A stretch of DNA of 21,619 nt from a virus: positions 1 to 21,619 of the IMG/VR virus record IMGVR_UViG_3300043466_000227, one strand, 5' to 3'. Of this stretch, positions 2,590 through 16,300 are shown piece after piece (the first letter of the stretch is position 1; every line of letters begins with the position of its first letter). A program made the position numbers and the translations under genes. The notes below the pieces were generated by a model that worked only from the letters and a program-made list of their open reading frames with translations, had not been told where the DNA came from and searched no databases.

Positions 2590-2862
2590 TTAATTCTGTT
2601 TATTAGAACTATCATAAAATTTTGTTAATACTGAGCCGTAAAGCATAGCTTGATACCTCATTATAAAACTATTGATAGATTCATTGACATAGAAGTAGTC
2701 CTCGTTTGTCATATACACAAAGCACCTTTCATCATTCTCCTCATCAGCAGTAACGCTAACTACTTGATAAATGTTGATATAAGCATCTGATTCCTCTGAA
2801 TTATCTTGGAACTCATAGCTTTCATCTTCATCTTCTGTCAGTTGTATGATGTGCATTAACAT
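2590..2862 (-). CDS. Hypothetical acidic protein, 90 aa, last gene of the late operon
   Basis: I chose the ATG at 2862; the frame can be extended to a TTG at 2907, but that would deepen the overlap with the gene upstream. The product starts MLMHIIQLTEDEDE, has an acidic linker (YEFQDNSEESD) and then a beta-rich part, INIYQVVSVTADEE and RCFVYMTNEDYFYVNESINS, ending in a helix. The last part has the feel of small Sm-like or FlbD-like beta domains (strand, loop with N/D, Y-x-V-x-E-S), but the match is too weak to name. It overlaps the 51-aa coiled-coil gene by 35 nt. Function unknown. Confidence 0.65.
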   Translation of the reverse strand: MLMHIIQLTEDEDESYEFQDNSEESDAYINIYQVVSVTADEENDERCFVYMTNEDYFYVNESINSFIMRYQAMLYGSVLTKFYDSSNKQN

Positions 2863-2983
2863 TTGTGATACTATTTTTAAGAACAGTAAGTCGCAATTCT
2901 CTAACAATCAATTCAAGCCTTGCTTCTAAATTGCTTTTCTCCTTCATTAATTGGTTAATCTTTACGTCTACTTCTCTGTTCAT
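2828..2983 (-). CDS. Small coiled-coil protein, 51 aa
   Basis: An ATG at 2983 opens a 51-codon frame that stops with TGA at 2830-2828. The product MNREVDVKINQLMKEKSNLE continues as a single long amphipathic helix with leucine/isoleucine at heptad positions (VKINQLM, LEARLELIVRELRLTVL), ending in a short polar tail. It overlaps the following 90-aa gene by 35 nt, like other coupled pairs in this operon. A TAAATTTG box lies just upstream. Such short coiled coils often form dimers with partner proteins; no specific role can be assigned. The overlap and regular heptads make it likely to be a real gene rather than chance. Confidence 0.55.
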   Translation of the reverse strand: MNREVDVKINQLMKEKSNLEARLELIVRELRLTVLKNSITNVNAHHTTDRR

Positions 2984-2984
2984 A

Positions 2985-2992
2985 CAAATTTA
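2985..2992 (-). promoter_or_regulatory. Possible -7 box (TAAATTTG) before the 51-aa gene
   Basis: TAAATTTG on the - strand matches TAnnTTTG and ends 1 nt before the ATG at 2983. There is no TTG 19 bp upstream, so only half of a promoter is seen. The 93-bp gap in which it lies (2984-3076) is the largest between late genes after the one behind the capsid gene. Confidence 0.2.
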
Positions 2993-3028
2993 CGATTTAA
3001 TTCTAATGGAAATAAAAAGTGCATACCT

Positions 3029-3043
3029 TATTGATAATCAATA
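3029..3043. repeat. Short perfect palindrome (operator-like) in the 2984-3076 gap
   Basis: TATTGAT-A-ATCAATA is a perfect 7+1+7 inverted repeat located between the metallophosphoesterase stop and the 51-aa gene. It lacks a following T tract on either strand, so it is not a terminator. It could be a repressor site for the putative promoter 36 bp downstream, or chance in AT-rich DNA. Confidence 0.25.
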
Positions 3044-3076
3044 TGATATACACTTTATGTCATCAGGTGAGAACTT

Positions 3077-3784
3077 CTATTTTTTTGGAAGCCTTATTAT
3101 TTTAGTACCTAAAGGCATCGGTACAAATATAGCAACTCTTCCGCCATCTAAAACCACTCCACAGCCTAATGTTGGTCTTTTGGGGAAAGGTCGTGAATAC
3201 TCCATAGCATAGGCATCAATATCGATACCACAGCCTACGTTCATGCCGAATATCATGTCTTTATCTGACGATGAGTATAAAACACCACCAAAACTATGGA
3301 TATGACCTATAACAGTTGATTGTCGAGCATCTCTTGCTCTGTTAATTGCACCAGCTTGTCCAGAACTACCAGTTCCATGAGTATATAGAACACCGTCTAT
3401 TTCCCATTCTAAGGCCCATTTCCAGCCTTTAGGAGCATCCCATGCTTGTTCGTATGATTTGATGAATCTCTCTGGTAAACCGCTTGTTTGAGCCTTTCTT
3501 TTATGTAAAGCTGAGTGGTTACCGATACAGACTTTAACATTAGGGAAAGCCTTGTACCATTTGTACATAGCTGCTTGAGCTAAATCAGCCTCATATCCAG
3601 CTCCATGACCGTCTGGCTTAGATTCGTGATAAGAGATTGCGTGATTGTCTACTTCATCTCCGATATGGACTACTTCGGAGCATTGAAACTTGTTATACAC
3701 TTCAAGGCAAAAGTTCCTATAAAGTGGATGACAGAATGGTTCGTGCGTATCTCCTATGACAAGCACATTTTTTTTAGATGCCAT
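3077..3784 (-). CDS. Calcineurin-like metallophosphoesterase
   Basis: The 235-aa protein has the complete set of metal-binding motifs of the calcineurin-like phosphoesterase superfamily: GDTHEPF (Asp12, His14), IGDEVDNH (Asp42), GNHS (Asn88, His89), THG (His135) and GHIHSF (His160, His162). The usual Asp/Glu after GNH is Ser90 here. Such enzymes cleave phosphomonoesters or phosphodiesters with two metal ions; phage members include nucleases and nucleotide phosphatases, so the substrate is open. There is no signal peptide, so it is cytoplasmic. It sits 19 bp after the endolysin gene at the end of the late operon, an unexpected place for DNA metabolism; it might act in host or phage RNA/DNA processing late in infection. 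Confidence 0.9.
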   Translation of the reverse strand: MASKKNVLVIGDTHEPFCHPLYRNFCLEVYNKFQCSEVVHIGDEVDNHAISYHESKPDGHGAGYEADLAQAAMYKWYKAFPNVKVCIGNHSALHKRKAQTSGLPERFIKSYEQAWDAPKGWKWALEWEIDGVLYTHGTGSSGQAGAINRARDARQSTVIGHIHSFGGVLYSSSDKDMIFGMNVGCGIDIDAYAMEYSRPFPKRPTLGCGVVLDGGRVAIFVPMPLGTKIIRLPKK

Positions 3785-3803
3785 ATTGGTTGGTTTGGTT
3801 TAT

Positions 3804-4262
3804 CTACTTGTAAGGTGCGTAGGCAGTTTTGCCGTTAACCTTAAGTGCTCTCAACACTTGCTTTCTATTTTTAGCTCCATTATAAGAAACGTGAACCCAG
3901 TCTGGAGCATCTTTTGTTCCAAACTCAAAAATTAACTGGTCAAAATCTAAAGTGTCTTTGATAAAATCAAATACTTCTTTATTAGTTGCATTAGTCATAC
4001 CATCCATATCGATATCTGCCGCTTTAGCCTCACAATGTTGTGAATTTAATGACCCTCCAATGTAATGGTTCAAAGCCTTAGACCTATATCCAGATGAAAT
4101 ATTAATAGGGCCAAACTTCATTCTGATTGGCTCTAATACTTTCTCACATAAAGTGATAAGGTTCTGTAAATGTTCTGGAGTTGGTTCATTTGATACTCCA
4201 TGTCTTTTTGCTGACTCACTACGAGTAAACTCAGCTAATGAAAAATGTGCTGTTAATTTCAT
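3804..4262 (-). CDS. Endolysin, peptidase M15 family (VanY-like D-Ala peptidase)
   Basis: The 152-aa protein fits the Peptidase_M15_3 layout: FSLAEFTRSESA near the N-terminus, ISSGYRSKALNHYIGG (residues 55-70), SQHCEAKAADID with the zinc ligands His76 and Asp83 spaced by seven, and DWVHVSY with the third ligand His124. Glu113 or Asp121 would be the catalytic base. The family cleaves peptide bonds in the peptidoglycan stem or cross-bridge. No signal peptide is visible, so it should depend on a holin for access to the wall, and a holin-like gene and a 28-aa membrane peptide lie directly upstream. Its start is 1 nt after the stop of the 28-aa gene. Confidence 0.9.
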   Translation of the reverse strand: MKLTAHFSLAEFTRSESAKRHGVSNEPTPEHLQNLITLCEKVLEPIRMKFGPINISSGYRSKALNHYIGGSLNSQHCEAKAADIDMDGMTNATNKEVFDFIKDTLDFDQLIFEFGTKDAPDWVHVSYNGAKNRKQVLRALKVNGKTAYAPYK

Positions 4263-4263
4263 C

Positions 4264-4350
4264 TTAAATCATTTGTTTTACAAAATATGCTAATCCCAGC
4301 AACCATAATAGGAAGCCAAGTGTTAAAATTATCTTTTCGTTCTTAGGCAT
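4264..4350 (-). CDS. Tiny single-helix membrane peptide, 28 aa, in the lysis cassette
   Basis: The frame ATG(4350)-TAA(4264) encodes MPKNEKIILTLGFLLWLLGL followed by AYFVKQMI: a short basic N-terminus, one 17-19 residue transmembrane helix and a Lys near the C-terminus. It fits its neighbours with almost no spare base: the ATG lies 8 nt inside the end of the holin-like gene, and the stop is followed after one G by the endolysin ATG. It is too short for most gene callers. The composition resembles small pinholin-type or holin-modulating peptides, but nothing proves a lysis role. Reality as a gene is supported by the perfect packing and the hydrophobic pattern. Confidence 0.6.
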   Translation of the reverse strand: MPKNEKIILTLGFLLWLLGLAYFVKQMI

Positions 4351-4558
4351 CTTTCTTAAATATTTTCTCTACTGAGGTTAAACCTAAACAACCGAATGCT
4401 AACAAAGCTACTGATTCTACAAGTATTGCACTTGGAGCTGTATGAACTTCACTAAATTGATTGTGATACATAGTAACACATAATGCGATAACACATAGCA
4501 ATCCACATAAACGCTTCATGCTAAATCTACCGTTATCTTCTTGGAAAAACTGTTTCAT
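4343..4558 (-). CDS. Holin-like membrane protein, 71 aa
   Basis: Two hydrophobic segments are visible: residues about 16-32 (RLCGLLCVIALCVTMY) and about 43-62 (SAILVESVALLAFGCLGLTS). An N-terminal amphipathic part (MKQFFQEDNGRFSMKR) precedes them and a basic tail (EKIFKKDA) follows. This is the layout of two-helix holins with both ends in the cytoplasm. The position just before the endolysin gene supports this. Family membership with named holins cannot be shown from the sequence alone. The stop codon is overlapped by the start of the 28-aa gene. Confidence 0.65.
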   Translation of the reverse strand: MKQFFQEDNGRFSMKRLCGLLCVIALCVTMYHNQFSEVHTAPSAILVESVALLAFGCLGLTSVEKIFKKDA

Positions 4559-4559
4559 A

Positions 4560-4952
4560 TTATAATTGACTAAATTGGAAAATGATTAAGAATATTAAGA
4601 TTACTTTTTGCCAAGCATGGTATTTATCCATCTTGTCAAGTTCTTTTTCTCTATTACGATATGTTTCGAGATTAGCTTCGTAGCGATACTTGTAATTTTC
4701 AAGCGTACTAACTTTATAGCTGTAGATAGTGAAAATAGAATCATGTTTTATTATTTTAGATTTTAACGAGTCCTTATAAGCGATTATTGTATCGTTATAG
4801 GACTTATATAGTTTGTTAATAGTGTCTGCTTGACCTATGGTCATTATAACTACAGAGTCACCCTTAATCTTTTTTGTAGTGGGATATTGCGAGTACGCTG
4901 AAACTGATAGCAGTATCATTACTAACACTATCCAAAGTCTGCTTAACTTCAT
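4560..4952 (-). CDS. Exported coiled-coil protein with C-terminal membrane anchor, 130 aa
   Basis: The N-terminus MKLSRLWIVLVMILLSVSAY is followed by SQ, a typical Bacteroidota signal peptide with likely cleavage before Gln22. Then comes a helical, charged region (NKLYKSYNDTIIAYKDSLKS and a second helix with ENYKYRYEANLETYRNREKE), and the last 16 residues are strongly hydrophobic (VILIFLIIFQFSQL). The protein would therefore span the periplasm as a helix and be held in a membrane by its C-terminus. This resembles a unimolecular spanin in layout, but the lipobox cysteine that spanins of that class need is missing. The first 89 nt overlap the end of the upstream exported-protein gene in another frame, an arrangement reminiscent of Rz/Rz1. 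Confidence 0.65.
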   Translation of the reverse strand: MKLSRLWIVLVMILLSVSAYSQYPTTKKIKGDSVVIMTIGQADTINKLYKSYNDTIIAYKDSLKSKIIKHDSIFTIYSYKVSTLENYKYRYEANLETYRNREKELDKMDKYHAWQKVILIFLIIFQFSQL

Positions 4953-5208
4953 TTAGTTCGGTTTTTAGTGTGCTTATCTCTTGCTTAATTTCGGCAAACT
5001 TGTTAACGGTAGACGTTACTATTGCTTCTTTAGCCTCATCTGCTTTTACTTGAACAGCTTTGTTCTTAGTTAAGGTCTGGTTAAAATCATTCATGAACTG
5101 CTCAAACTCCTTATCCTCAGCAATCTTGTTATCCTCTTTTTTAGCTGTCACATTAATCGTTGTGGCTGTAACCGTTAGAAACCCAAAAATTAAAAGAATT
5201 GATTTCAT
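4864..5208 (-). CDS. Exported coiled-coil protein, 114 aa, overlapping the next gene by 89 nt
   Basis: A signal peptide or N-terminal anchor (MKSILLIFGFLTVTATTINV) is followed by a charged, helical body. NKFAEIKQEISTLKTELNEV and KQTLDSV give a clear leucine/isoleucine heptad pattern. The C-terminal end (AISFSVLAISHYKKD) is encoded by the same DNA as the signal peptide of the next gene. I see no lipobox. In context (four consecutive envelope proteins before holin and endolysin), a spanin-like role in outer-membrane disruption is plausible but unproven. The short C-terminal hydrophobic run could be a second membrane contact. No named family recognised. Confidence 0.65.
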   Translation of the reverse strand: MKSILLIFGFLTVTATTINVTAKKEDNKIAEDKEFEQFMNDFNQTLTKNKAVQVKADEAKEAIVTSTVNKFAEIKQEISTLKTELNEVKQTLDSVSNDTAISFSVLAISHYKKD

Positions 5209-5214
5209 GGCATA

Positions 5215-5520
5215 TTATTTTACAGATGATTTAATAGCACCCATTGCATCAAGAGTCTCTAACTTAGTAGTCGTTGAACTTAGGGCTGTTTTACACTCAA
5301 TTAACGCTTGTGTCTTTAAGCTATCTTTATACTCAAGATTGGTAATCCTTGCGTCTTGAGAGTCGATTTGATTGTTAAAATTGCCTCTAATATCTACATA
5401 AAGGACAGTTATACCGATTATAACTAAAAACATAGTACCCTTAATCGGGTCTTTACTAAATTGGGAGAAACTAATCGGAAGAGGATTAGCACTTACGTTA
5501 ACGTCTTTCTTTGGAGCCAT
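5215..5520 (-). CDS. Membrane-anchored coiled-coil protein, 101 aa (i-spanin-like layout)
   Basis: A 25-30 residue cytoplasmic leader (LPISFSQFSKDPIKG) precedes one transmembrane helix (GTMFLVIIGITVLYVDI, residues about 28-45). A C-terminal coiled coil follows (NNQIDSQDARITNLEYKDSL and onwards to TTTKLETLDAMG). The layout, cytoplasmic N-terminus, single helix and periplasmic coiled coil, matches inner-membrane spanin subunits, and small proteins of this look are common in phages of Flavobacteriales to my knowledge. It starts 1 nt after the previous stop. There is no direct sequence evidence for fusion activity; it could equally be a membrane scaffold for lysis proteins. Confidence 0.65.
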   Translation of the reverse strand: MAPKKDVNVSANPLPISFSQFSKDPIKGTMFLVIIGITVLYVDIRGNFNNQIDSQDARITNLEYKDSLKTQALIECKTALSSTTTKLETLDAMGAIKSSVK

Positions 5521-5521
5521 A

Positions 5522-6115
5522 TTACTTTTTACCTATTTTAAAATACAAGCTACCAGAGTAACTCATATTGTTATTTTTATTAATATTAAGATTAAGGCCT
5601 ATTAGAGCCTTATTTTTGGCACTTAACATCAATCCAGGACTTAGTACTTCTAAGCCATTAGATTGGCTAAAATCGCCTCTTATGCCATAAAAAAGCCTAT
5701 ATTTAGCTTTCTCTGCATAAAATTGCTTAACATAGATGGTTTTTTCGGTAATCTTGGACTCAAAAGACCTCGATTTGATACGATTTTGGCTGATGGTATC
5801 ATTAATCACAAAGATATTAGAATCTTGATTAATGGTATCAGTATAAGCTAATACTGCATTATAATCGTTTATTATGCGTATTGTATCGTGAATAGTAGTC
5901 GTATCTGTAGCTATAATCACAAAAGGGATAGAATCCCCTTTTATGTACCGATTTCTGTACGTTTTTGTGTACACAGTATCATGCACCTCTTTGACTTTTA
6001 CATACTTGGATAGGTCAATATCCTCTGTTTTATTAGATTTATGACATGATTCATAGGCAAATACGCCTAAGAAAAAGAATCCAATAATAAGTAAGTAGTC
6101 TCTAAGATGTTTCAT
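5522..6115 (-). CDS. Membrane-anchored beta-rich envelope protein, 197 aa
   Basis: An N-terminal hydrophobic segment (YLLIIGFFFLGVFAYESC, residues 7-24) is followed by an extended, Thr/Ile/Asp-rich region (DTTTIHDTIRIINDY, TDTINQDSNIFVINDTISQN) and a C-terminal part of alternating polar and hydrophobic residues with glycines (YGIRGDFSQSNGLEV to YSGSLYFKIGKK), like beta-hairpins of an outer-membrane or lectin-like domain. Phages of Bacteroidetes often carry proteins of this architecture near lysis genes (DUF6808/DUF6549-like, from memory and unverified). Cys24 is preceded by Tyr-Glu-Ser, a poor lipobox. It starts the envelope-protein cassette, 1 nt after the preceding tail-tube paralogue. Its role in lysis is inferred only from position. 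Confidence 0.6.
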   Translation of the reverse strand: MKHLRDYLLIIGFFFLGVFAYESCHKSNKTEDIDLSKYVKVKEVHDTVYTKTYRNRYIKGDSIPFVIIATDTTTIHDTIRIINDYNAVLAYTDTINQDSNIFVINDTISQNRIKSRSFESKITEKTIYVKQFYAEKAKYRLFYGIRGDFSQSNGLEVLSPGLMLSAKNKALIGLNLNINKNNNMSYSGSLYFKIGKK

Positions 6116-6116
6116 A

Positions 6117-6494
6117 TTATGCTAAAGTATAATCTCCAGTTCCTTGTAGTGTTACAGAATAAGTAGCAACTCCTTCTACTGGCCCATCAACTGAAATTGA
6201 TTCAATATTGCAACTGCCAGAAAATACTTTAGCTCCGACTGTAAATGTTACAGAAAGTAAAGTATTGTTTTCTTGGTCTGTAAGCATATCAAAATAGTCA
6301 TAGTTGTCTAATGTGATAAGCCCTTCACAATTAATTGTAAATGATTTAAAACCATAAACATATTCTTTTCTAAACCCAGAAGATTTATTTGTAACATCAA
6401 CTTGGTCTGATGATACCTCTAACGAACATGATGTAGAAGCTGCAAATACAACACCGCTTTTTCTTAAAATTATATTTGTTCCGTTAAGTGACAT
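6117..6494 (-). CDS. Tail-tube-like protein, paralogue 2 (125 aa)
   Basis: This protein clearly shares its pattern with the tail tube protein at 11629-12048 and with its direct neighbour. The N-terminal part, NGTNIILRKSGVVFAASTSC then SLEVSSDQVDVT, mirrors NGTLLVVKIGGVAVAHSTSC then SLSVSTDLPDST in the tube protein. The glycine-rich end (VATYSVTLQGTGDYTL) mirrors PATFSASFTGTGALVM. The family is a beta-sandwich that stacks as hexameric rings in siphovirus tails. Here it lies downstream of the tail-tip gene, just before the lysis cassette, so it is not the main tube subunit. It may decorate the tail tip, cap the tube or serve as an adhesion domain. Separation from the next paralogue is 18 bp with an A-rich leader. 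Confidence 0.75.
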   Translation of the reverse strand: MSLNGTNIILRKSGVVFAASTSCSLEVSSDQVDVTNKSSGFRKEYVYGFKSFTINCEGLITLDNYDYFDMLTDQENNTLLSVTFTVGAKVFSGSCNIESISVDGPVEGVATYSVTLQGTGDYTLA

Positions 6495-6512
6495 TTTATT
6501 ATATTTTTATTT

Positions 6513-6917
6513 TTATACAAAATCATAAGGGCCAGTGCCTTGTAAAGTTACCGAATAGGTACCAGCACCCTCGGCTGGGCCAGTTAAACTTATTGATGTT
6601 ATATATACATCAGCATTTATAGTAATATTACCAGCAGAATTAAGAATCTGAAATTTTACATTTAATAATGTTCTGTTTTTTTGTGCTATCAATAAATCAT
6701 AATAACTTGTAAAAAACAATGTTACAAAACCATCAGCAGTAATTTCAAATGATGTTGATGTAGGTAAAATTTGAGTATAAGTTCCAGTAGGAGCTGTTGT
6801 TATATCTATAAACTCAGTATTTACTGAAAAAGTGCAATTTGTAGACGCACCAAAAACATTACCAGCAGATACTGAATTGCGATAAAGAACCATATTATTT
6901 CCAAGACTAATCGACAT
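6513..6917 (-). CDS. Tail-tube-like protein, paralogue 1 (134 aa)
   Basis: The same repeated fold as its neighbour: LGNNMVLYRNS, then GASTNCTFSVNTEFIDITTA, a middle TSFEITADGFVTL and the end GAGTYSVTLQGTGPYDFV. Eleven of the last residues (TYSVTLQGTG) are identical to paralogue 2, showing that the two arose by tandem duplication, while the N-terminal halves have diverged. The family is the phage tail tube beta-sandwich. It directly follows the tail-tip gene (9-bp gap with an A-rich leader), suggesting both paralogues are assembled at the distal tail or at least expressed with it. An alternative is a virion surface Ig-like adhesin; the equal size with the tube subunit argues for ring assembly. 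Confidence 0.75.
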   Translation of the reverse strand: MSISLGNNMVLYRNSVSAGNVFGASTNCTFSVNTEFIDITTAPTGTYTQILPTSTSFEITADGFVTLFFTSYYDLLIAQKNRTLLNVKFQILNSAGNITINADVYITSISLTGPAEGAGTYSVTLQGTGPYDFV

Positions 6918-6926
6918 TTTATATTT

Positions 6927-8873
6927 TTATTTATTTGTGTTTAAATAGATGTTTCTAACAATATTAGTAGTTAATCCAAAGTTAATAGCAAACATATTTA
7001 CATCTTGAGCACCTTTTCTTAAATCCCATTTAAAAGATGTTAGTATATAATTTTTAGCAGCAACTCCAGTTGCATAAGAATAAGAGAATTTAGAAAGTAA
7101 ATCATATCCTATGCTCTTAAAATTACCACTTATGTTTAACTGATTGTATAACTCATCTACGCCAACATCTTCTGATACAAGTTCAAATATAGTAGCTGTT
7201 GTTCCAGACCCATTTCTTTGCCATGTATTTAATACTGCACTTCTTCCATCTGTTAACCATGCACTTATAAACCTTGAAGCAGCTACATTATCTCCATTGT
7301 TAAAAGTAATACTTGTTTGTATAGTAACAAATATATTTTGGTCACCAAATATGGTTATATCATCATACGTTTCATTATCCTTATTAAATAGGCTGTCTTT
7401 AGCAGCCTCGTTTATTTGAGCTGTAAAATTTTGAACACTTGAATTTACACCATAGTATTGTATTCTAAAAAAGCCAACATAGGTAAATAAATTAGGAATT
7501 GTAGGGCCTACATAATAAGGTTGATATATCCTAACAAATAATTTACCATCATTTGGTATATAAGTATATTTATAAGTAGAGCCATCAAATGAATTATGGT
7601 CAAGTATAAAATCTGTATCTTGAAAAGAGCCATTTGGATTCCAATAGTAAGTAGGTAAAGTAGTATCATTTGGTACTAAGATTACTCTTGCAGATTCAGC
7701 AAATAAACCACCAGTATTTATATCTGACCATACCGAAATAATATCACCAGCAACACAATTATATGATTGAGATTCTATAAATGAACCAGAACCTAAACCT
7801 ACAGCTTGACTTGTAAAAAACCTTGCTTGGTTTGTACTACCATTTCTTTGATATGTCAAACTTCCACTCCAAGCATCTACACTTGTACTTGATGCCCATG
7901 AGCTAAAGTCTCCATTAAGTACGCATTGAATAACATTCTGCAAATTACTATTTGTAGTATATGACTTATTGCCTTTAGATAAAGAAACTTGTAATGACTT
8001 GCCAATTTGTTTAAAGTTATCAGAATCATCTATAGTTACAGTTGTATCAGTTTCAGTAAAAGTAGACTGATATGTACCAGCACTATTATACTTAAAGTAG
8101 TCTCTTGACGTACCTCTTGTTAATGAACCGTAAGATGTTAAAAAATACTCTCCATTTTTTTGATGACATATAAATCCAAACTTTCTACATATACCTTGTA
8201 ATACATTATACCAAGTAAGATAGTTACCAGCACTTTCTATAAATGCGTTCTTTTGAACATACATATTTTCAAGTTCTCTATCAGCTATCCCAGTATTTTT
8301 ATAATACCAATTTACATTATAGTTTAATCCTAATACGTTAGAACCAAAAGCATTAGTTAAAATATCTTTAAAAGAATAGGTTTCTGATGCGTTAAAAGCT
8401 ATGACAAATGTAGAATCATAGTATATTTTCTTTTCTTTAAGATTAGCTAAACCATCGTTAAATACTATTGAAAACTCTTTAATTGATACTGGGCTATAAA
8501 TAATCTGTTCAATTGGCACAAATAAACCAACAAACAATGTTGTCCATGATGCAGGAGCTGCACCACCAACAGATACGCCAGATTCTAATATTAACTTAAA
8601 ATCATTATCATCAGCATTAAAAAACTCTTCTATAACAAAGTTGTCATCAACAATAAGATTTACAGTAGCTTTTTTAGATATGATTGGATTAAATGATTTA
8701 CCCTCGCTATCTATAGTCTCTATTACAACTGGAGTACCAGTTCCGATTAATGGAAAGCTACTGCCTCCATATCCATCTTTATAGATAGATGCTCTATATT
8801 GAGTCTTATTGGTACTTGCTGGGTTAACAAATACGTTGTCAAATGTCAGTGTATATTTTAGTCCGTATGCCAT
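6927..8873 (-). CDS. Tail-tip / baseplate hub-like protein with carbohydrate-binding-like insert
   Basis: The 648-aa protein follows the tape measure gene, the position of distal-tail and hub proteins. Residues 1 to about 190 form a beta-rich domain that looks like a distal-tail or wedge module (MAYGLKYTLTFDNVF, YRASIYKDGYGGSSF). Residues about 190-300 with TWYNVLQGICRKFGFICHQK then NGEYFLTSYGS resemble hub/Tal N-terminal domains. Residues about 317-465 (LNGDFSSWASSTSVDAWSG, with AGDIISVWSDIN) look like a jelly-roll carbohydrate-binding insert. The C-terminal part has more hub-like strands (KFSYSYATGVAAKNYILTSF). Start and stop overlap neighbours as TAATG at 8873. It probably binds the cell surface and seals the tail. 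The insert call is by pattern only. Confidence 0.7.
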   Translation of the reverse strand: MAYGLKYTLTFDNVFVNPASTNKTQYRASIYKDGYGGSSFPLIGTGTPVVIETIDSEGKSFNPIISKKATVNLIVDDNFVIEEFFNADDNDFKLILESGVSVGGAAPASWTTLFVGLFVPIEQIIYSPVSIKEFSIVFNDGLANLKEKKIYYDSTFVIAFNASETYSFKDILTNAFGSNVLGLNYNVNWYYKNTGIADRELENMYVQKNAFIESAGNYLTWYNVLQGICRKFGFICHQKNGEYFLTSYGSLTRGTSRDYFKYNSAGTYQSTFTETDTTVTIDDSDNFKQIGKSLQVSLSKGNKSYTTNSNLQNVIQCVLNGDFSSWASSTSVDAWSGSLTYQRNGSTNQARFFTSQAVGLGSGSFIESQSYNCVAGDIISVWSDINTGGLFAESARVILVPNDTTLPTYYWNPNGSFQDTDFILDHNSFDGSTYKYTYIPNDGKLFVRIYQPYYVGPTIPNLFTYVGFFRIQYYGVNSSVQNFTAQINEAAKDSLFNKDNETYDDITIFGDQNIFVTIQTSITFNNGDNVAASRFISAWLTDGRSAVLNTWQRNGSGTTATIFELVSEDVGVDELYNQLNISGNFKSIGYDLLSKFSYSYATGVAAKNYILTSFKWDLRKGAQDVNMFAINFGLTTNIVRNIYLNTNK

Positions 8874-10924
8874 TAAAAAGTGCTTTGTTTGTTTCTTTCA
8901 GCTTTATTCATCAAAATTAATAAATCATTACCACTTATTCTTGCCTCAAGTGTTCCACCACCACTTCCTCCAAGCATAGATTGTAATTTATCTAATGGAG
9001 CTACAACCTCTGGATTATTAGCGGCTCCAGGATATTCTCCTACAAGTCTATAAGAAGGGCCACCAAATATTCCACCTTTAGCTGTAGGACTAAATAAGTC
9101 AGCACCAAGACCCATTCCTGCACCAACAAGATTACCAAAATATTTTAATGCACCACCAGCTTGTGCAATCTTACCTTGCATTCCAGGTAGTAAAGAAATT
9201 ACAGCAACAGCTATAGCGGCTGCAATAGCTACCTTGACTAATTTTTTAATAATATCAGTAAATGCTTTACTTAAAACTTCACCTATACTTGCACCTTTTT
9301 CTAATAACAAATCTAAAGCAGGGCCTAAAGCATTCATAATACCAATGCCCATTTGAACTATATCTTGCATAGCAGCCTTAGACTCACTTGTAACTGTTTC
9401 ATTAGACTTTTTTCTAAGTTCAAATATTGCATCTAAATATTCAGATAATTTTATCGTTCCATCCATAAAGCCTTGATTTAAGGCATTACGCATATTGGTT
9501 TCTGCTAATTTAATTTTATCAAAACTACCTTGTGCTTCGCTAACTTCTAATTGATATTGTTGTTTTAATAAATCTACTCTTGCTTTTGACATTTTCTTAT
9601 CAAAAGCCATTTTATCATCAAATGCTTTAGCTTGTGCTTTAGGGTCTATAACTGGCTCTTCTATACGTTGTATATCCCCTCCAGCCAAAGCAACTCTTTT
9701 TGCAGCAAATGCAGCAAGTTTTTTATTTTCTTTTTCTTGATTAATTAAAATTTTATCTGATTTCTTTTTTTCAGCTTCTTGTATCTTTTTTAATCTTTCT
9801 TGTTCTTTGGCAAATTCATTTGCTTTAAATTTAGCTAATCTATCTTCTGCATTTATATTTTCATTAACAATGCCCTTGTAAATAGATACCTCATCATTTA
9901 TTGCAGTTTGTTGTTGTTCAATGTCATATAATACATCACTGGACTTTTGCATTGCTTGCAAAGAATTTACTATTGGGCCAAATGCACCATTTGCAGGTAA
10001 ATCGTTTATAAACTTGTTAAATTGCTCAGTAAGTGTAAGATTATTATACATTAAATAATTTACAGTTTTCAAGCCTTTTATGTCTCTTTCTTTTTGGTCG
10101 GCTTGAGCTTTAACTCTTTTAACGTTTAACTCATTTTGCTTAACAGCTAATTCCTCTAATGACTTTTCTGCTGCTTTAGCTTGTGCATATTGCCAAATAG
10201 TGTCAGTTAAAACTCTATATGCAGTAGCAGCTTCTCCAAGAGTTATTTGCTCTTCTGTATATAAAGACAATAAATCTGGATATTCGCTTTTTAATGTTTT
10301 AGCTGCTTGTAATCTATCCTCCATACTTGCATTTACATTAGTAGATACAGTATAAAGTGATTCTAATTTTATAGTTTCATTTGCAAAAGTTGTAGCTGCA
10401 TCCTTAGAAAAATCGGTTGTTAACTTAACGCTTTTACCAAATTTTATAATACCCATATCTAAAGCAGTAATAACTGCTACAAGGCCAGAAAAAGCTACAT
10501 AAGCTATACCAGTGCCAGTTGCAATACTTCCAAATAAAGCTGGTAAGTTATTCTGAATACCTCTAAAACCATAAGGTAAATCTTGCAATACTAATGCCAA
10601 AGCCATGTATTGCTTATTGGAGTTCTTTATTGAATCAGCATTGCTATTTAAAACAGTAGTAGTAGTATTTGTAGCATTTTGAGTTTGAACTAAAGAATTT
10701 TTTAATTGGTCTAAATTAGTTTGTAATAACTTAATAGCACCACTTGCAGGACTTATACCAGAAGTAACAAGTTTTACCATGTAGGTCTGAAGAGCAGCTA
10801 TCTCTTTCTCAATATTCTTAACACTCTTGCCAAACAATTCATTAGAGGCCGTAATGTTATTAATAGTCTTAGTGTACTGGTCGGTGGCCTTAATTATAAT
10901 ATCTACACCTTCATTATTCGCCAT
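8873..10924 (-). CDS. Tail tape measure protein
   Basis: At 683 aa it is the largest tail gene after the fibre. The N-terminal half is helical and coiled-coil prone (IIKATDQYTKTINNITASNE). Residues about 105-160 carry hydrophobic segments (YMALALVLQDLPYGFRGIQN, GLVAVITALDMG), the centre is charged helix (FAKEQERLKKIQEAEKKKSD), and residues about 561-582 are a second hydrophobic stretch (VKVAIAAAIAVAVISLLPG). The end YRLVGEYPGAANNPEVVAPL is the usual tape-measure tail (GE.G.E.V.PL type). With the rule of about 0.15 nm per residue the tail would be near 100 nm. The preceding tail chaperone pair with a frameshift confirms the call. Confidence 0.93.
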   Translation of the reverse strand: MANNEGVDIIIKATDQYTKTINNITASNELFGKSVKNIEKEIAALQTYMVKLVTSGISPASGAIKLLQTNLDQLKNSLVQTQNATNTTTTVLNSNADSIKNSNKQYMALALVLQDLPYGFRGIQNNLPALFGSIATGTGIAYVAFSGLVAVITALDMGIIKFGKSVKLTTDFSKDAATTFANETIKLESLYTVSTNVNASMEDRLQAAKTLKSEYPDLLSLYTEEQITLGEAATAYRVLTDTIWQYAQAKAAEKSLEELAVKQNELNVKRVKAQADQKERDIKGLKTVNYLMYNNLTLTEQFNKFINDLPANGAFGPIVNSLQAMQKSSDVLYDIEQQQTAINDEVSIYKGIVNENINAEDRLAKFKANEFAKEQERLKKIQEAEKKKSDKILINQEKENKKLAAFAAKRVALAGGDIQRIEEPVIDPKAQAKAFDDKMAFDKKMSKARVDLLKQQYQLEVSEAQGSFDKIKLAETNMRNALNQGFMDGTIKLSEYLDAIFELRKKSNETVTSESKAAMQDIVQMGIGIMNALGPALDLLLEKGASIGEVLSKAFTDIIKKLVKVAIAAAIAVAVISLLPGMQGKIAQAGGALKYFGNLVGAGMGLGADLFSPTAKGGIFGGPSYRLVGEYPGAANNPEVVAPLDKLQSMLGGSGGGTLEARISGNDLLILMNKAERNKQSTF

Positions 10925-10926
10925 TA

Positions 10927-11214
10927 TTATACTGGTTTAATATTTTCGTATTTTTTTAGTACCTCTTCTAACTCTTCGTTAGTCATTATCCTAACATTCT
11001 TCTTCTTATTCCTCTTATCGCAATCTAAATCTAAAAGCTCAGTAGGTTTAATCTTCTTGCCTTTAGGTAGCTGCATATTGACAAGAATAGTAGTTTGCCA
11101 TCTTGACCTCACCCATTCTTGCTCCTCTTTATGCCTATAACCATACCAAATAAAGTCTAATTCAGCCATGGTCATCTCCCAAAACAAATGGGGAAGTATT
11201 TGACACTCCCCCAT
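10927..11214 (-). CDS. Tail assembly chaperone, frameshift part (GT-like extension)
   Basis: The ORF beginning at an ATG at 11214 is 95 aa, but the same frame is open further upstream through LEWIDIERYT to the A10 run at 11245-11254. The natural product is therefore a -1 frameshift fusion with the upstream chaperone (about 122 + 106 residues, 228 aa). Key stretches are MTMAELDFIWYGYRHKEEQE and, further on, TNEELEEVLKKYENIKPV. In siphoviruses the long chaperone form binds the tape measure protein, and this gene lies directly before the tape measure gene. Independent initiation at the ATG cannot be excluded. The stop is 2 nt from the tape measure start. Confidence 0.75.
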   Translation of the reverse strand: MGECQILPHLFWEMTMAELDFIWYGYRHKEEQEWVRSRWQTTILVNMQLPKGKKIKPTELLDLDCDKRNKKKNVRIMTNEELEEVLKKYENIKPV

Positions 11215-11240
11215 TGTATATCTTTCTATGTCAATCCATT

Positions 11241-11612
11241 CTAATTTTTTTTTTCTTCACCAGCCTCTGTTGACGTAGAACCAGGTTGCTCTAATCCGCT
11301 ATTCATACTTTCTGATAGTGCAGCCATGATTTCTTGGAACTGTGTTCCAGCGATACCACCCATGTCATCTATCCAATCGCATACATCAATCTCTTTAAAA
11401 TCTGGCGTTCTACCTTCCTTGTAGAAAGGGTATTCAGCAGCAGACCTTACTAAATTAACGATAGCATCTAAAGCAGATTCACCGCTTAAAGCTGTTCCTA
11501 TCTCTGTTGGGCCGATACCTTGTAACTGACAGAATCTCTTTAGAGACCATGTGCAGAAACGCAGCGGTATTACCTTACCATCAGAAAGTGATAGGTTAAA
11601 TTGTCCTCTCAT
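11241..11612 (-). CDS. Tail assembly chaperone (G-like, short form)
   Basis: A 123-aa protein between the tail tube and the tape measure genes, the fixed place of lambda G-type chaperones. The N-terminal strand region MRGQFNLSLSDGKVIPLRFC is followed by helices with LKRFCQLQGIGPTEIGTA and LVRSAAEYPFYKEG, a layout known from tail chaperone families in phages of Gram-positive and Bacteroidota hosts. The C-terminal tail is disordered and charged (STSTEAGEEKKN) and ends at the frameshift site. It is not a virion part; it holds the tape measure protein soluble and recruits tube subunits. Identification rests on order, size and the frameshift. Confidence 0.85.
   Translation of the reverse strand: MRGQFNLSLSDGKVIPLRFCTWSLKRFCQLQGIGPTEIGTALSGESALDAIVNLVRSAAEYPFYKEGRTPDFKEIDVCDWIDDMGGIAGTQFQEIMAALSESMNSGLEQPGSTSTEAGEEKKN
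11245..11254 (-). other. Programmed -1 frameshift site (A10 slippery run)
   Basis: The last codons of the short chaperone gene are GGT GAA GAA AAA AAA AAT TAG, that is ten A in a row just before the stop. Slipping back one base (X XXY YYZ is satisfied by A AAA AAA) moves the ribosome into the frame of the 10927-11214 ORF, which has no stop between the run and that ORF. Transcript slippage by RNA polymerase on the A10 tract could give the same product. Confidence 0.75.
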
Positions 11613-11628
11613 ATATTTGGTTTTTAGT

Positions 11629-12048
11629 TTATGCGTTGGTAGTCATCACTAATGCTCCAGTTCCAGTGAATGATGCAGAGAATGTAGCTGGAGATTCCAT
11701 GTCACCAGTAAAGTCTAAAGACTCAACCGCTGCAGTTCCAGTCCAAATCTTGTCACCACTTACGAAAGTAGAGAAAGTCAAAGTTACATCAGTTCTTGAA
11801 CTTACAGAAGAAAATAAATCTTCTACGTTTACACCAGCAGCAGCAGATTCGATTACCGCTAAGCCATCTGTTGATACTGACCAAGAACGAAGTCCTTGAA
11901 TTTGAGCCGCCCATCCGCCACTATCTTTTGTAGTAGAATCTGGTAAGTCTGTTGATACTGATAAAGAGCAAGAGGTTGAGTGAGCTACTGCTACACCGCC
12001 TATTTTAACGACTAATAAAGTCCCGTTGAACACACCTTGGGTTGCCAT
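11629..12048 (-). CDS. Major tail tube protein
   Basis: The 139-aa protein occupies the canonical position, after the tail terminator and before the tail chaperones. The sequence is beta-rich and Ser/Thr/Ala-rich: NGTLLVVKIGGVAVAHSTSC, SLSVSTDLPDSTTKDSGGW, then VTLTFSTFVSGDKIWTGTAA and PATFSASFTGTGALVMTTNA. This is the tail tube beta-sandwich pattern (TP901-1 MTP type) that polymerises as hexameric rings around the tape measure. Two paralogues lie at 6117-6494 and 6513-6917. A homing endonuclease gene is placed directly upstream, separated by 11 bp of AT-rich leader (TTAAAAAAAATAAAC). Confidence 0.85.
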   Translation of the reverse strand: MATQGVFNGTLLVVKIGGVAVAHSTSCSLSVSTDLPDSTTKDSGGWAAQIQGLRSWSVSTDGLAVIESAAAGVNVEDLFSSVSSRTDVTLTFSTFVSGDKIWTGTAAVESLDFTGDMESPATFSASFTGTGALVMTTNA

Positions 12049-12059
12049 GTTTATTTTTT

Positions 12060-12713
12060 TTAATGTTTAAATAATTGATTATCAATTACTTTTATTGATT
12101 TATTTTTAATCCTACTTTTTAATGCTCCATAACTTATGCCGATATAATCAGCAGCAAGTCTTTTGCTTTTAAATTCTCCGACAAAGTTACCATTCTTATC
12201 CCAAACCTTACAAGCCTTCATGAGATGGCTGTTTTCTACACCTTGCTTTGCCAAAGACATTTTTCTTTTAGATTCATCACTTTTAGAAATTCCTTTAGCT
12301 AATGAACCCCAATTATTGCCTTTATTTCTTTCAGCAATCTTTCTTTTATTTTCTTCTGACATCTTTCTACCGATACCAGCTAATCCTATCTTTTTTTTAT
12401 GCTCTTCTGATAATTTACTATTAGCACCACCTGGTCTAATGTTATATCCGAAGTTCCTATCTGTTGCTCTTAAAATCTTAATAAACTGCTCTTCGTAAAG
12501 ATTAAGACTTTCTAAGTCATCAGTTTTTAAGATGGTATAGAACATAAAGGAATCTATGCCATGTTTATTAAAAGAACGCTGAAGGTACTCATTGTCGTGA
12601 GTACCCTTCTTTAGCCTTTGTCTATGGTAACTAAACCTAACTTCTGGCTTATTTATTGTTTGTCCGATATAAGCCTTCCCAGTATTCTTGTTCAGTATCT
12701 TATATAAGTACAT
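12060..12713 (-). CDS. GIY-YIG homing endonuclease, free-standing
   Basis: The 217-aa protein begins with YLYKILNKNTGKAYIGQT, where Tyr4 and Tyr15 stand for the GIY-YIG tyrosines. Arg26, Glu75 and Asn91 (FGYNIRPGG) complete the catalytic set at spacings close to I-TevI. Then follow NUMOD3-type modules (SEEHKKKIGLAGIGRKMSEE, and SDESKRKMSLAKQG) and a C-terminal IENR/NUMOD1-like helix-turn-helix (KVWDKNGNFVGEF, RLAADYIGISYGALKSRIKN) for DNA recognition. It is not within an intron: the flanking genes are both complete. It is wedged between tail terminator (1-nt gap) and tail tube genes, so it is a mobile intruder in a conserved structural block, likely to cut the same site in phages lacking it. 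Confidence 0.93.
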   Translation of the reverse strand: MYLYKILNKNTGKAYIGQTINKPEVRFSYHRQRLKKGTHDNEYLQRSFNKHGIDSFMFYTILKTDDLESLNLYEEQFIKILRATDRNFGYNIRPGGANSKLSEEHKKKIGLAGIGRKMSEENKRKIAERNKGNNWGSLAKGISKSDESKRKMSLAKQGVENSHLMKACKVWDKNGNFVGEFKSKRLAADYIGISYGALKSRIKNKSIKVIDNQLFKH

Positions 12714-12714
12714 A

Positions 12715-13143
12715 CTATGTTGTTTGAGTTACGAAGTGGTCTACCACTATAACTCTTCTAAAAATATACGTTTCTTCTACATAGTCAAAAGTAGCCTGGT
12801 TTGATACCATATTCCTTGTAACTATTTTGAAATCTGGAGAAGCATTTGGGTAATCTGCAGGAGCTACTCCTATGATTTCCAATAAGTCATTAGCCCATTG
12901 GTCTACGGCTTTTTGACCTACCTCACCAGACTTAAATGTCCTATATACAATGTCAAACTGTATGCTTACATCAAAGTTATAGCTTGTTTTGTCACTATTC
13001 TCTACTGATGTCTGAGAACTTATTAACAAGAATGGAGGCTCTGAACCATCTGGAGCTATGGTATCATATACCGATAGTTCGTAGTTGTTAGCATTTATCT
13101 TGTCGAAATAAGCCTTTCGTATAGCATATCCGCAGTCTTTCAT
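12715..13143 (-). CDS. Tail terminator / tail completion protein
   Basis: The 142-aa alpha/beta protein begins with a helix (MKDCGYAIRKAYFDKIN), continues with strands in PFLLISSQTSVENSDK and YNFDVSIQFDIVYRTFKSGE, a helix at AVDQWANDLLEIIGV, and ends VEETYIFRRVIVVDHF. This is the arrangement of the small tail-terminator/DUF3168-type proteins that cap the tail tube and join it to the head. Its position, after the neck genes and before the tail tube, agrees. The ATG overlaps the stop of the 53-aa gene (TAATG). No residue-level signature is available for this fold, so it rests on order and secondary-structure feel. Confidence 0.75.
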   Translation of the reverse strand: MKDCGYAIRKAYFDKINANNYELSVYDTIAPDGSEPPFLLISSQTSVENSDKTSYNFDVSIQFDIVYRTFKSGEVGQKAVDQWANDLLEIIGVAPADYPNASPDFKIVTRNMVSNQATFDYVEETYIFRRVIVVDHFVTQTT

Positions 13144-13304
13144 TATCCTTCTACCTCTACTTCTTTAGAATCCGTTTGTTGGCCATTTTGAGCCTCATTT
13201 AGCTCACCAAAGAACTTAATAAGGGGTAAGCCATACTTTGTCGGTAACTCTTGAAAAAAGCCATCTAATTGCTTAATTTGCTCTTGATTTAATGTAATAG
13301 TCAT
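13143..13304 (-). CDS. Small hypothetical protein, 53 aa
   Basis: The frame ATG(13304)-TAA(13143) gives MTITLNQEQIKQLDGFFQEL followed by PTKYGLPLIKFFGELNEAQN and an acidic, flexible tail (TDSKEVEVEG). It is an amphipathic two-helix peptide without a signal peptide. It fills the 160-bp space between the fibre and the tail terminator, shares a TAATG junction with the latter, and is preceded by a good promoter-like element, so it is almost surely a gene. It might be a neck or tail accessory factor; the family is unknown to me. Confidence 0.7.
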   Translation of the reverse strand: MTITLNQEQIKQLDGFFQELPTKYGLPLIKFFGELNEAQNGQQTDSKEVEVEG

Positions 13305-13319
13305 ATTTGGTTATTTTTA

Positions 13320-13349
13320 CAAATTTAGGTAAAATTATTTAGCTTTCAA
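13320..13349 (-). promoter_or_regulatory. Bacteroidota-type promoter, TTG-N19-TAAATTTG, before the tail genes
   Basis: On the - strand TTG (13349-13347, in the last Leu codon of the fibre gene) is followed after 19 nt by TAAATTTG (13327-13320). The predicted start is near 13313, about 10 nt before the ATG of the 53-aa gene, with an A-rich leader (TAAAAATAACCAAAT). It would supply extra transcription of the tail genes. Confidence 0.5.
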
Positions 13350-16300
13350 TATTGCCATTTCAGCTTCTAAAGTTTCAATCTTAGCCATAGCCTCTTGAAG
13401 TACTTTTATAGTAGCATGGTGTAAGTCGGCAGTATAAACAGACTTTAATGGCTCTTCATTATTTACAATCTCATTACCATCTTCGTCTAATTTAGGTTTA
13501 GTATTCCATCCATCTGCATCGATAAACTCTGGTGCTACCGCTTCAACTTGTTGAGCAATTACACCTATATTAAAGTCATCGTGCGTTTGGTCTTTATATT
13601 TAAACTTAACAATCTCAATAGCTTTAAACTTATCCCAATAAGATTCTAAAGGAAATATATCTTTTTTAGTTCTTTCGTCAGAAAGATTTACGTTATTTGC
13701 TTGATAATTTGCTATACCACCATTACTTCTTATATCTACTCTTAAAGTAGTTGAATCTTCGCAATAAAAAAATTGTCCACTTGTATTATTAGGAGAAGCA
13801 GCAGTATAAGCAAGATATATACCTCTTGGATTTGAACTTGTATTTGTTATAGCAACATTCCAATCGGCTGCACTTTGTCTTATTTCGTGGTAATACAAAG
13901 TATTATTTACATAAGTACCATTGTTACTCATTTTAGTATAACCACCCGATGTGATTCTCATTCGTTCGGTAACATCTCCACTTGTTGCAGCATTTGTTCT
14001 AAATGTAATTGAATCATTTGAAGGCCCAAAATTAATATCTGCTGCTCCAAAACTACCATTATCTCTTACCCAAGCTGAACCATTATAGTAAATATTTGCA
14101 GATAAACAATTGGCGTTAATACCACTTCTACCATATAATCTAATATTACCATTTAAACCAGCAATAGTTAATGCTTCATTTGGAGTTATTCCTCCAATTC
14201 CTATTGAATTTGAAAATGTAGCAGCACCAGTAGATAATACAATACTTAAACCTTTTGCACCAGTAGCCCAATCTGTTAAATATAATTTACCATCAGAAGC
14301 TCCAGCTCCTAAAAATCCATCAGTAGAACCTTTTATTCTTATATTACCATTTGACAATCCAGCAACTAATGTACCATTAGAAGTAACTGCACTACTAAAC
14401 GTAGCACTTGTACCACTTAAAGCACCAGTAAGCGTACCACCTGCTAAAGGTAGGTAAGCAGCTAAAGCAGTTGTTGTCGCATAAGTGCTTGAGTCTACTG
14501 AGCCATCTGCCTTTAAAAACTGAGATGCTGTACCACCACTCTTAACTAAAGTAGTTGCGTTTAAAGTACCTATGATTGTAGCAGCGTTACCACTACCACT
14601 TGCTTTGTTTATATATAATCCTTCTCCGTTACCATTCTTAGTGATGTTTAAGGCTATACCGCTTCCGCTTGTATGACCAATAGTAAAAGTATCACCACTA
14701 CCACTACTTGAGAAGCTACCAGTAGTTCCTATTAATCCTCCAGTCAAAGTGCCACCAGTCAAGTTTAACTTACCATTAAGCTGTGTTTGTATAGCACTTG
14801 TAACACCAGCTAAATATCCTATCTCTGTAGTTGTTGTAGTCGCACTTGCTGCAATCTTACCACTACCATCAGAAACCAATGCTCTTGATGCAGTTAAGTT
14901 AGCAGTTACTACGCTTGATGCACCACCAGTAATAGACGCTTGTGCTCTTGCTGTAGTAAAGTATTGATTGGTTCCCTCAGCAACATCTGATGTTGTTAGA
15001 ACTACTGTTCCAGCAAATCCGTTTACAGTTGTAACTGGGAAAGTAATGTTTGTATTAGAAGCACTTGTAATTCTACCCTTGCTATCTACAGCGATTGTAG
15101 GCACAGCAGTAGAAGTTCCGTAAGTTGTTGCAGTAACACCAGTATTAGCCAATGTTAAAGCAGAAGTTACGTTTGCAGAACCATCGAAGCTAACTGACCA
15201 TGCAGCATCTCCACTTGCAGCTATTGTTCTTGCAGTAGATAAGATATTTGCAGCGTTTGCTGTACCAGCTAAGTTACCATCTACGTTAGCAACTAAAGTT
15301 GCAACTGTGTAACCAGTTCCAGTAGTGTTAACTACGTTTGTTGGTTCATCTACTAATCCGCTAAATATCTTAAACTTACCAGCATCAGAAGCATCTCTGA
15401 ATAATCCAGTAAACTCTACTCTTTCTTGAACAGAATCATAGTATCTACCATAATATCCGATGTCAACCGCATCTGTTGTGTTGTTAGTATTAGCTACCTC
15501 AAACAATGGGTCTTTAGAAGATATTGATTCTGTGTTTACATAAGTTGCAGTACCATTGATAGTTAAGTTACCACTTACAACTAAGTTGTTCGGCATTGTA
15601 ACATCATTAGTAAATGCAAGTGTTGTAGTATTACCTACAGTTGTAGCTGCAATTTGATTTGCAGTTCCGTTTATTGTTGTTATACCTTGGTCAGTCCAAG
15701 TTGCTGTTATTACGTTAGCATCTTGTTGAGTTAGGCTTAAAGTCTTTGTTGATGTACCAGTTACCGCAGCAGATACAATAGAACGATTGTAAGCTATATC
15801 GTATTGACCTAATTTAACAGTAGTAGGAATCGCATAACCAGCAGTTAAGCTGAATACACCACTATTGTTAGCATAAGATAAGCCAGTTGCTGATGATGAT
15901 AATGCAAGTCTTGCACGAGCATCTGTGTAATATAAGTTTGTGCCTTCTGCTAAGTCTGTAGTAGTTTTTGCAGCTAAAGCACTATTAAATCTTGCTTGTG
16001 TATAGTAAAGGTTAGTTCCTTCGGCTAAATTAGTTGTACTCTTATTACCAAACGCAGTATCAAATCTTGCTTGAGTGTAATATAGGTTTGTACCCTCTGC
16101 TAAGTTAGTTGTTGTTGATGCAGCTAAATTAGTTGTGAAATTAGAGTTGCCTCTCGCTTCTGTCCAATATAAGTTAGTTCCTTCTGCAATGTTTGTTGTA
16201 GTCAAAGTAACTGAACCGCCTAATGATACCGCTTGACCATTAATAGTTATTGAGCTATTAGTTAAACTTGCATTAGGAATAGCAGCTAAGTTAAATACTC

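Follow-up and report, generated by a model that had tools for sequence, protein, structure and literature searches.

Diverged tail tube paralogues behind a probable baseplate hub gene: a candidate tube-to-hub adaptor and an optional accessory in a virus likely to infect Bacteroidota

Why should a phage keep, behind the gene of its tail tip, two further versions of a protein that it already encodes at the usual place of the tail tube? The question is raised by the window, the whole stretch of 21,619 nucleotides of IMG/VR record IMGVR_UViG_3300043466_000227 analysed here, in which three genes on the minus strand encode related proteins. These are TTP, the main tail tube protein (11629-12048, 139 aa), and two copies located behind the hub gene, namely B (6513-6917, 134 aa), the first post-hub paralogue and a candidate adaptor ring between tube and hub, and A (6117-6494, 125 aa), the second post-hub paralogue and an optional accessory. 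The original prediction was correct as to coordinates, strand and lengths, and it had described the three proteins as tail-tube-fold paralogues that arose by duplication and then diverged.

Profile searches agree with that description. All three proteins exceed the curated cut-off of PF06199 (Phage_tail_2, 23.8 bits) in the Pfam profile search (A, 43.7; B, 32.4; TTP, 56.8 bits) and match phrog_1407, "major tail protein", in the PHROG search (E-values from 5e-19 to 4e-27), and TTP also scores above the cut-off of NCBIfam NF047353 (tube_lmo2291). Compared with 2000 shuffles, the similarity far exceeds chance for A-B (40% identity, z 33), A-TTP (34%, z 32) and B-TTP (27%, z 12); the paralogy is real, and trees support duplication followed by divergence. 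Structure prediction recovered the tail tube fold for B: the best PDB matches of its AlphaFold2 model (69-sequence alignment, mean pLDDT 72.5, pTM 0.64) in Foldseek are the tail tubes of monocin, RcGTA (Rhodobacter gene transfer agent) and 80alpha and lambda gpV, with TM-scores of about 0.6-0.65 for the monocin, RcGTA and lambda gpV tubes. The tail tube beta-sandwich with its flanking helix is assigned to B by this model and to A and TTP by sequence only. A shared NGT start, which had been claimed for all three proteins, does not extend to B, which begins GNNM, whereas TYSVTLQGTG does occur identically in both A and B. The two genes encode this stretch by different synonymous codons, which points to conservation of a motif rather than to recent copying, and rules out recent gene conversion between their ends. 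Both A and B consist of a single tube-fold domain with no appended binding domain; their beta2-beta3 loop is equal in length to that of TTP, and their N- and C-terminal arms are shorter.

The TTP gene lies ahead of a pair of genes (10927-11214 and 11241-11612, minus strand) that occupy the usual place of tail assembly chaperones, the former alone giving a sub-threshold match to a TAC profile, and of the gene for the tape measure protein (TMP; 8873-10924, minus strand, 683 aa), which was recognised by a PHROG tape measure match (E 0.0013) and by phrog_14295. This position fits the main, stacked-ring subunit of the tube, and the positions of A and B do not. The TMP gene overlaps the following gene (6927-8873, minus strand, 648 aa) by one base (8873), so that there is no room between the two for a gene of Dit, the distal tail adaptor protein. 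The product of the latter had been called a tail-tip protein, a description that is borne out and can be refined to a baseplate hub similar to gp27 and Mu gp44: its model (pLDDT 64.7, with a low-confidence middle) matched hubs of contractile systems and phage baseplates in Foldseek (7aef_q, 9rku_Af, 6j0m, 3cdd, 3d37 and the monocin tip hub), with E-values from 3.5e-5 to 2e-2 and a probability of about 1 for several of them. Because whole-chain TM-scores are only 0.2-0.3, the assignment leans on the E-values, the probabilities and alignments of parts of the chain, and is no more than probable. Carbohydrate-binding-module (CBM) entries also score against the hub model, and these scores may concern its low-confidence middle. 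Searches with the hub sequence gave no Pfam, PHROG or NCBIfam match of note and no PDB sequence match; distant hub relatives in Cellulophaga phages are virion proteins according to the MS/MS notes in their records.

On the other side of the pair, a conserved gene (5522-6115, minus strand), which had no family match in Pfam, PHROG or NCBIfam and also lies behind the paralogues in relatives, closes the post-hub slot downstream. Five small genes without informative family matches follow A and lead to an M15 peptidase gene (PF08291, 3804-4262), and it was fair to place the pair before the lysis genes. Three other genes of the window, all on the minus strand, may be recorded here: a metallophosphoesterase-like gene adjoining the M15 peptidase (3077-3784), strongly conserved in relatives and with Pfam scores just below the cut-offs; a GIY-YIG homing endonuclease gene with NUMOD3 and NUMOD1 motifs (12060-12713), which separates the TTP gene from that of the tail terminator and which L007 and L029 also have but many otherwise similar relatives lack; and a large fibre gene (13335-16892, 1185 aa) with a Peptidase_S74 chaperone at its end, upstream of TTP between the neck and terminator genes. 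Cellulophaga phage phi18:1 has a fibre gene near the place equivalent to that of the last of these.

Post-hub copies are not peculiar to the window. IMG/VR was scanned with B, A, TTP and a profile of A, which yielded about 150 loci, many of which share a contig with another. Slots were counted as closed when the hub gene was found on one side and the counterpart of the 5522-6115 gene on the other, and removal of identical hubs left 50 distinct closed slots. Every one of them holds tube-fold paralogues (one in 11, two in 34, three in 5 and none in 0 of the 50), which answers the search for the same doublet in related phages that had been suggested for this locus. The first post-hub paralogue, of 132-134 aa, is present in 50 of 50 slots, the second sometimes reaches 201-205 aa through an added C-terminal domain (about 70 aa), and A occurs in 19 of 50, always as the last copy. 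Loci fetched by A or B necessarily contain A or B; the TTP-anchored loci are free of that bias, and their closed slots give the same result. L048 was left out, as its slot is open, its hub frame is shortened and the 482 bases before the contig end hold no paralogue.

Among more distant relatives, the paralogue of L107 (8927-9634, 236 aa) carries a C-terminal domain and is followed by a fibre with a Peptidase_S74 chaperone, and that of L105 (14030-15202, 391 aa) has an inserted domain of about 150 aa in addition to a C-terminal domain common to both; neither the inserted nor the C-terminal domain had a family match. Tandem tube-fold genes at the tube position, seen in L113 (8999-9445 and 9501-9908) and also in L111, L112 and L115-L118, with none behind the hub where this region is covered, are another variation on this theme of duplication; L113, L115, L117 and L118 each have two such copies and a hub that no copy follows. 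Shuffling of paralogues, which a chimeric copy in L021 had suggested, was set aside: the end of the L021 contig (1-275) is inverted, matching L024 in reverse, and the palindromic contig L046 shows that such ends, which are probable assembly artefacts, do occur. A scan of bacterial genomes with the paralogue profile found no relative, and hence that scan gives no prophage or host assignment.

Cultured relatives share the arrangement in part. In Flavobacterium phage 11b the tube position is taken by gp36, and the tube-fold protein gp44 stands directly behind the hub gp43; Cellulophaga phage phi10:1 has the tube protein gp084 and a second tube-fold protein, gp089, behind the hub. As in the window, the post-hub protein of both phages stands behind a homologous hub and no Dit is recognised; unlike the window, both carry one extra copy only. 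In the tree, gp44 and gp089 group with their own tube proteins, away from A and B, and the AU test speaks against one common origin for every post-hub copy (p 0.011, with a long-branch caveat), which suggests that the copies of 11b and phi10:1 probably arose by a separate duplication. The records of both phages already annotate gp44 and gp089 as tail-related, so that as genes they are not new. No post-hub tube-fold copy was found in Cellulophaga phages phi18:1, phi12:1, phi17:1 and phi39:1 or in Salinibacter phage M8CR30-2, all of which have related hubs; phi18:1 gp60 and phi39:1 gp23 and gp24, considered as further tube-fold proteins, gave no match. The phi10:1 record has an MS/MS note on the hub, the TMP and the fibres and on neither of the two tube-fold proteins, and as it is missing from both, the missing note says little. 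The freely readable literature yielded no description or discussion of a post-hub tube paralogue. Post-hub tube paralogues are therefore real, recurrent and under-described, and the function put forward for them below is a proposal by analogy. The kinship with these cultured phages makes Bacteroidota the likely host of the window virus, and probably Flavobacterium-like bacteria.

The first paralogue and A differ in how they evolve. In pairwise comparison, the median protein distance is small for TTP (0.05), for the two chaperone-position genes (0.06 and 0.08) and for the 5522-6115 gene (0.16), and large for the hub (0.66), the TMP (0.57) and the first paralogue (0.50). Distances of the hub and the first paralogue are correlated (rho 0.77, and 0.68 when the TMP is held constant; a correlation this high arose in none of 2000 permutations), whereas those of the hub and the 5522-6115 gene are not (rho -0.07), nor are TTP distances correlated with hub distances. 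The exchange can be seen in the DNA of L070, which matches window positions 2782-6209 and 10458-13353 at 86-93% identity and has a single matching stretch of about 100 bases within 6209-10458. The swapped part of the TMP comprises residues 150-600, approximately, and both ends of the protein are conserved; residues 601-683 or so keep 67-77% mean identity in spite of the exchange of residues 150-600 and of the hub. The idea that the C-terminus of the TMP is swapped along with the hub was thus ruled out, since this end is conserved and the middle variable. The first paralogue varies along its whole length (mean entropy 1.22), in contrast to A (0.33) and TTP (0.42), and A requires about ten gains or losses on the hub tree, compared with two for the long second paralogue. 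Because swapped neighbours are linked, the co-variation demonstrates co-inheritance, from which contact between hub and first paralogue may only be inferred. If B is an adaptor ring, the hub-paralogue cassette would be a probable unit of change in host range.

Which protein, then, joins the tube to the hub? Adaptor rings of the tube fold are well known at this place, where siphophages have Dit, a small one in the case of lambda gpM, and where Mu gp43 serves in contractile tails (PMC13243795, PMC11445458, PMC7291167, PMC11915804), and both Dits and tube initiators are tube-fold hexamers at the tube-hub junction (PMC13243795, PMC7291167, PMC11915804). Fourteen related records, namely eleven IMG/VR contigs (29-34 kb), phi10:1, phi18:1 and phage 11b, were searched with the Sipho_tail profile (PF05709), with positive controls among known genomes, and none gave a match at E<=1; two or more tube-fold matches occur in every one of them but phi18:1. 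A Dit that has diverged beyond the reach of this profile is possible in these genomes. A and B have the tube-fold domain of a Dit but neither the position between TMP and hub nor a Sipho_tail match, and for these two reasons they are not to be filed as Dit. Nor is either of them built like tube initiators of the Mu gp43 type, in which a tube-like domain is joined to an added domain that reaches the baseplate. By analogy, B probably works like a Dit all the same.

We favour, with about even confidence, the reading in which A and B are diverged duplicates of TTP that reside in the tail tip, B as a hexameric ring between tube and hub and A as a dispensable extra ring or decoration. The tail tube gene would have been duplicated and the copies would have diverged into A and B; the B hexamer would join the six-fold tube to the three-fold hub, which is the job of Dit or of the initiators of contractile tubes, and would change along with the hub that it has to fit, while A would serve as an additional tip ring or an outer decoration that the phage can do without. 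This reading draws on the computed homology, B fold, gene order, presence of the first paralogue in every closed slot, co-variation with the hub and lack of a recognised Dit, and what it proposes beyond them is ring formation, a place in the virion and a division of labour between B and A. Since the first paralogue is always beside the hub gene and changes with the hub, and no Dit is recognised, an adaptor role is the simplest reading of B, and A, conserved yet optional, fits an accessory ring or decoration. Three observations count against an adaptor. The A and B genes lie behind the hub gene and not ahead of it; the C-terminal end of the TMP, in other phages a point of contact with Dit and hub, is conserved rather than swapped; and Cellulophaga phages phi18:1, phi12:1, phi17:1 and phi39:1, in which no second tube-fold protein was detected beside the related hubs, suggest that a hub may manage alone, unless a divergent or fused Dit was missed. 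A Dit domain fused to the phi18:1 hub, which is long (about 905 aa), would account for the lack of the extra copy in that phage. Of the functions named at the outset, extra rings at the tail tip are the best fit, at least for B: relatives always have a first paralogue, it is coupled to the hub, and no Dit is recognised. The evidence speaks neither for nor against a tip-capping piece, and the adhesin or decoration idea is kept for A and for the longer relatives with extra domains.

That idea can also be applied to both proteins, and it is the most serious competitor, possible though clearly less probable: B and A would be accessory adhesion or decoration subunits of the tip, displaying variable surfaces or added domains on a tube-fold base, and the tube would meet the hub directly. 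The extra domains on the paralogues of relatives (391 aa in L105, 236 aa in L107, 201-205 aa in the second paralogues) and the variation of the first paralogue over its full length agree with such a role, as do the absence of the extra copy from several Cellulophaga phages and the frequent coding of peripheral adhesion parts by post-hub genes, exemplified by the L107 paralogue and the Peptidase_S74-chaperone fibre after it. It accounts less well for a first paralogue in every closed slot of the close relatives, for A and B being small single-domain proteins with no appended binding domain, and for the fact that no other adaptor ring was recognised. We consider it improbable that the two proteins are minor subunits of the tube, mixed into it or stacked at its end, for example as the last rings, with no special adaptor role. 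They share the fold of TTP and the length of its beta2-beta3 loop, and L113, L115, L117 and L118 do have tandem copies at the tube position and none post-hub, but A and B lie behind the hub, are coupled to it and change at rates very unlike that of TTP, and their arms are shorter than those of TTP, whereas removal of the arm of the SPP1 tube protein stops polymerisation (PMC8718954). Very improbable is a non-virion protein acting in the infected cell, be it a tail-assembly factor or a decoy for a tube-sensing defence system, since, although A is last in the tail operon, adjoins the lysis region and is gained and lost among relatives, and although the Foldseek list has the tube-fold SPR bound to the defence protein DSR2 (which reflects the shared fold only), the first paralogue is tightly coupled to the hub, the genes are inside the tail operon and the copies of relatives can bear extra domains.

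If B is an adaptor ring, the step from tube to adaptor by duplication, so far suspected mainly from shared folds, has been caught here with sequence similarity still visible, and it would be explained how this lineage copes without a recognisable Dit, which would aid tail annotation in siphophages of Bacteroidota. A broader scenario, which we regard as rather unlikely, is that in a lineage of such siphophages Dit was replaced at least twice independently by a post-hub tube duplicate, which then multiplied to give as many as three different stacked rings, exchanged with the hub as a ready-made host-recognition tip.

Known systems offer three comparisons. A and B resemble Dit (SPP1 gp19.1, T5 pb9 and lambda gpM) in the tube fold and in the role expected at the tube-hub junction, and the domain inserted in the L105 paralogue is reminiscent of evolved Dits, which carry CBM insertions (PMC7291167); unlike A and B, Dit genes sit between TMP and hub, and Dits mostly possess a C-terminal domain as well as a belt, whereas A and B are much closer to TTP and have no Sipho_tail match. 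Tube initiators of contractile systems include T4 gp48 and gp54 and eCIS Afp5 and Pvc5. Their tube-like, hexamer-forming domain, which starts the tube at the baseplate, is the feature proposed by analogy for B; Mu gp43, however, has an added helix-rich domain, while here the tail is non-contractile and the proteins are small, single-domain and encoded behind the hub. Lastly, decorated tube proteins (the extended form of SPP1 gp17.1, lambda gpV and T5 pb6) share the tube fold, and some relatives of B likewise bear outward domains, but gp17.1, gpV and pb6 are main tube subunits, whereas A and B are the products of separate genes behind the hub.
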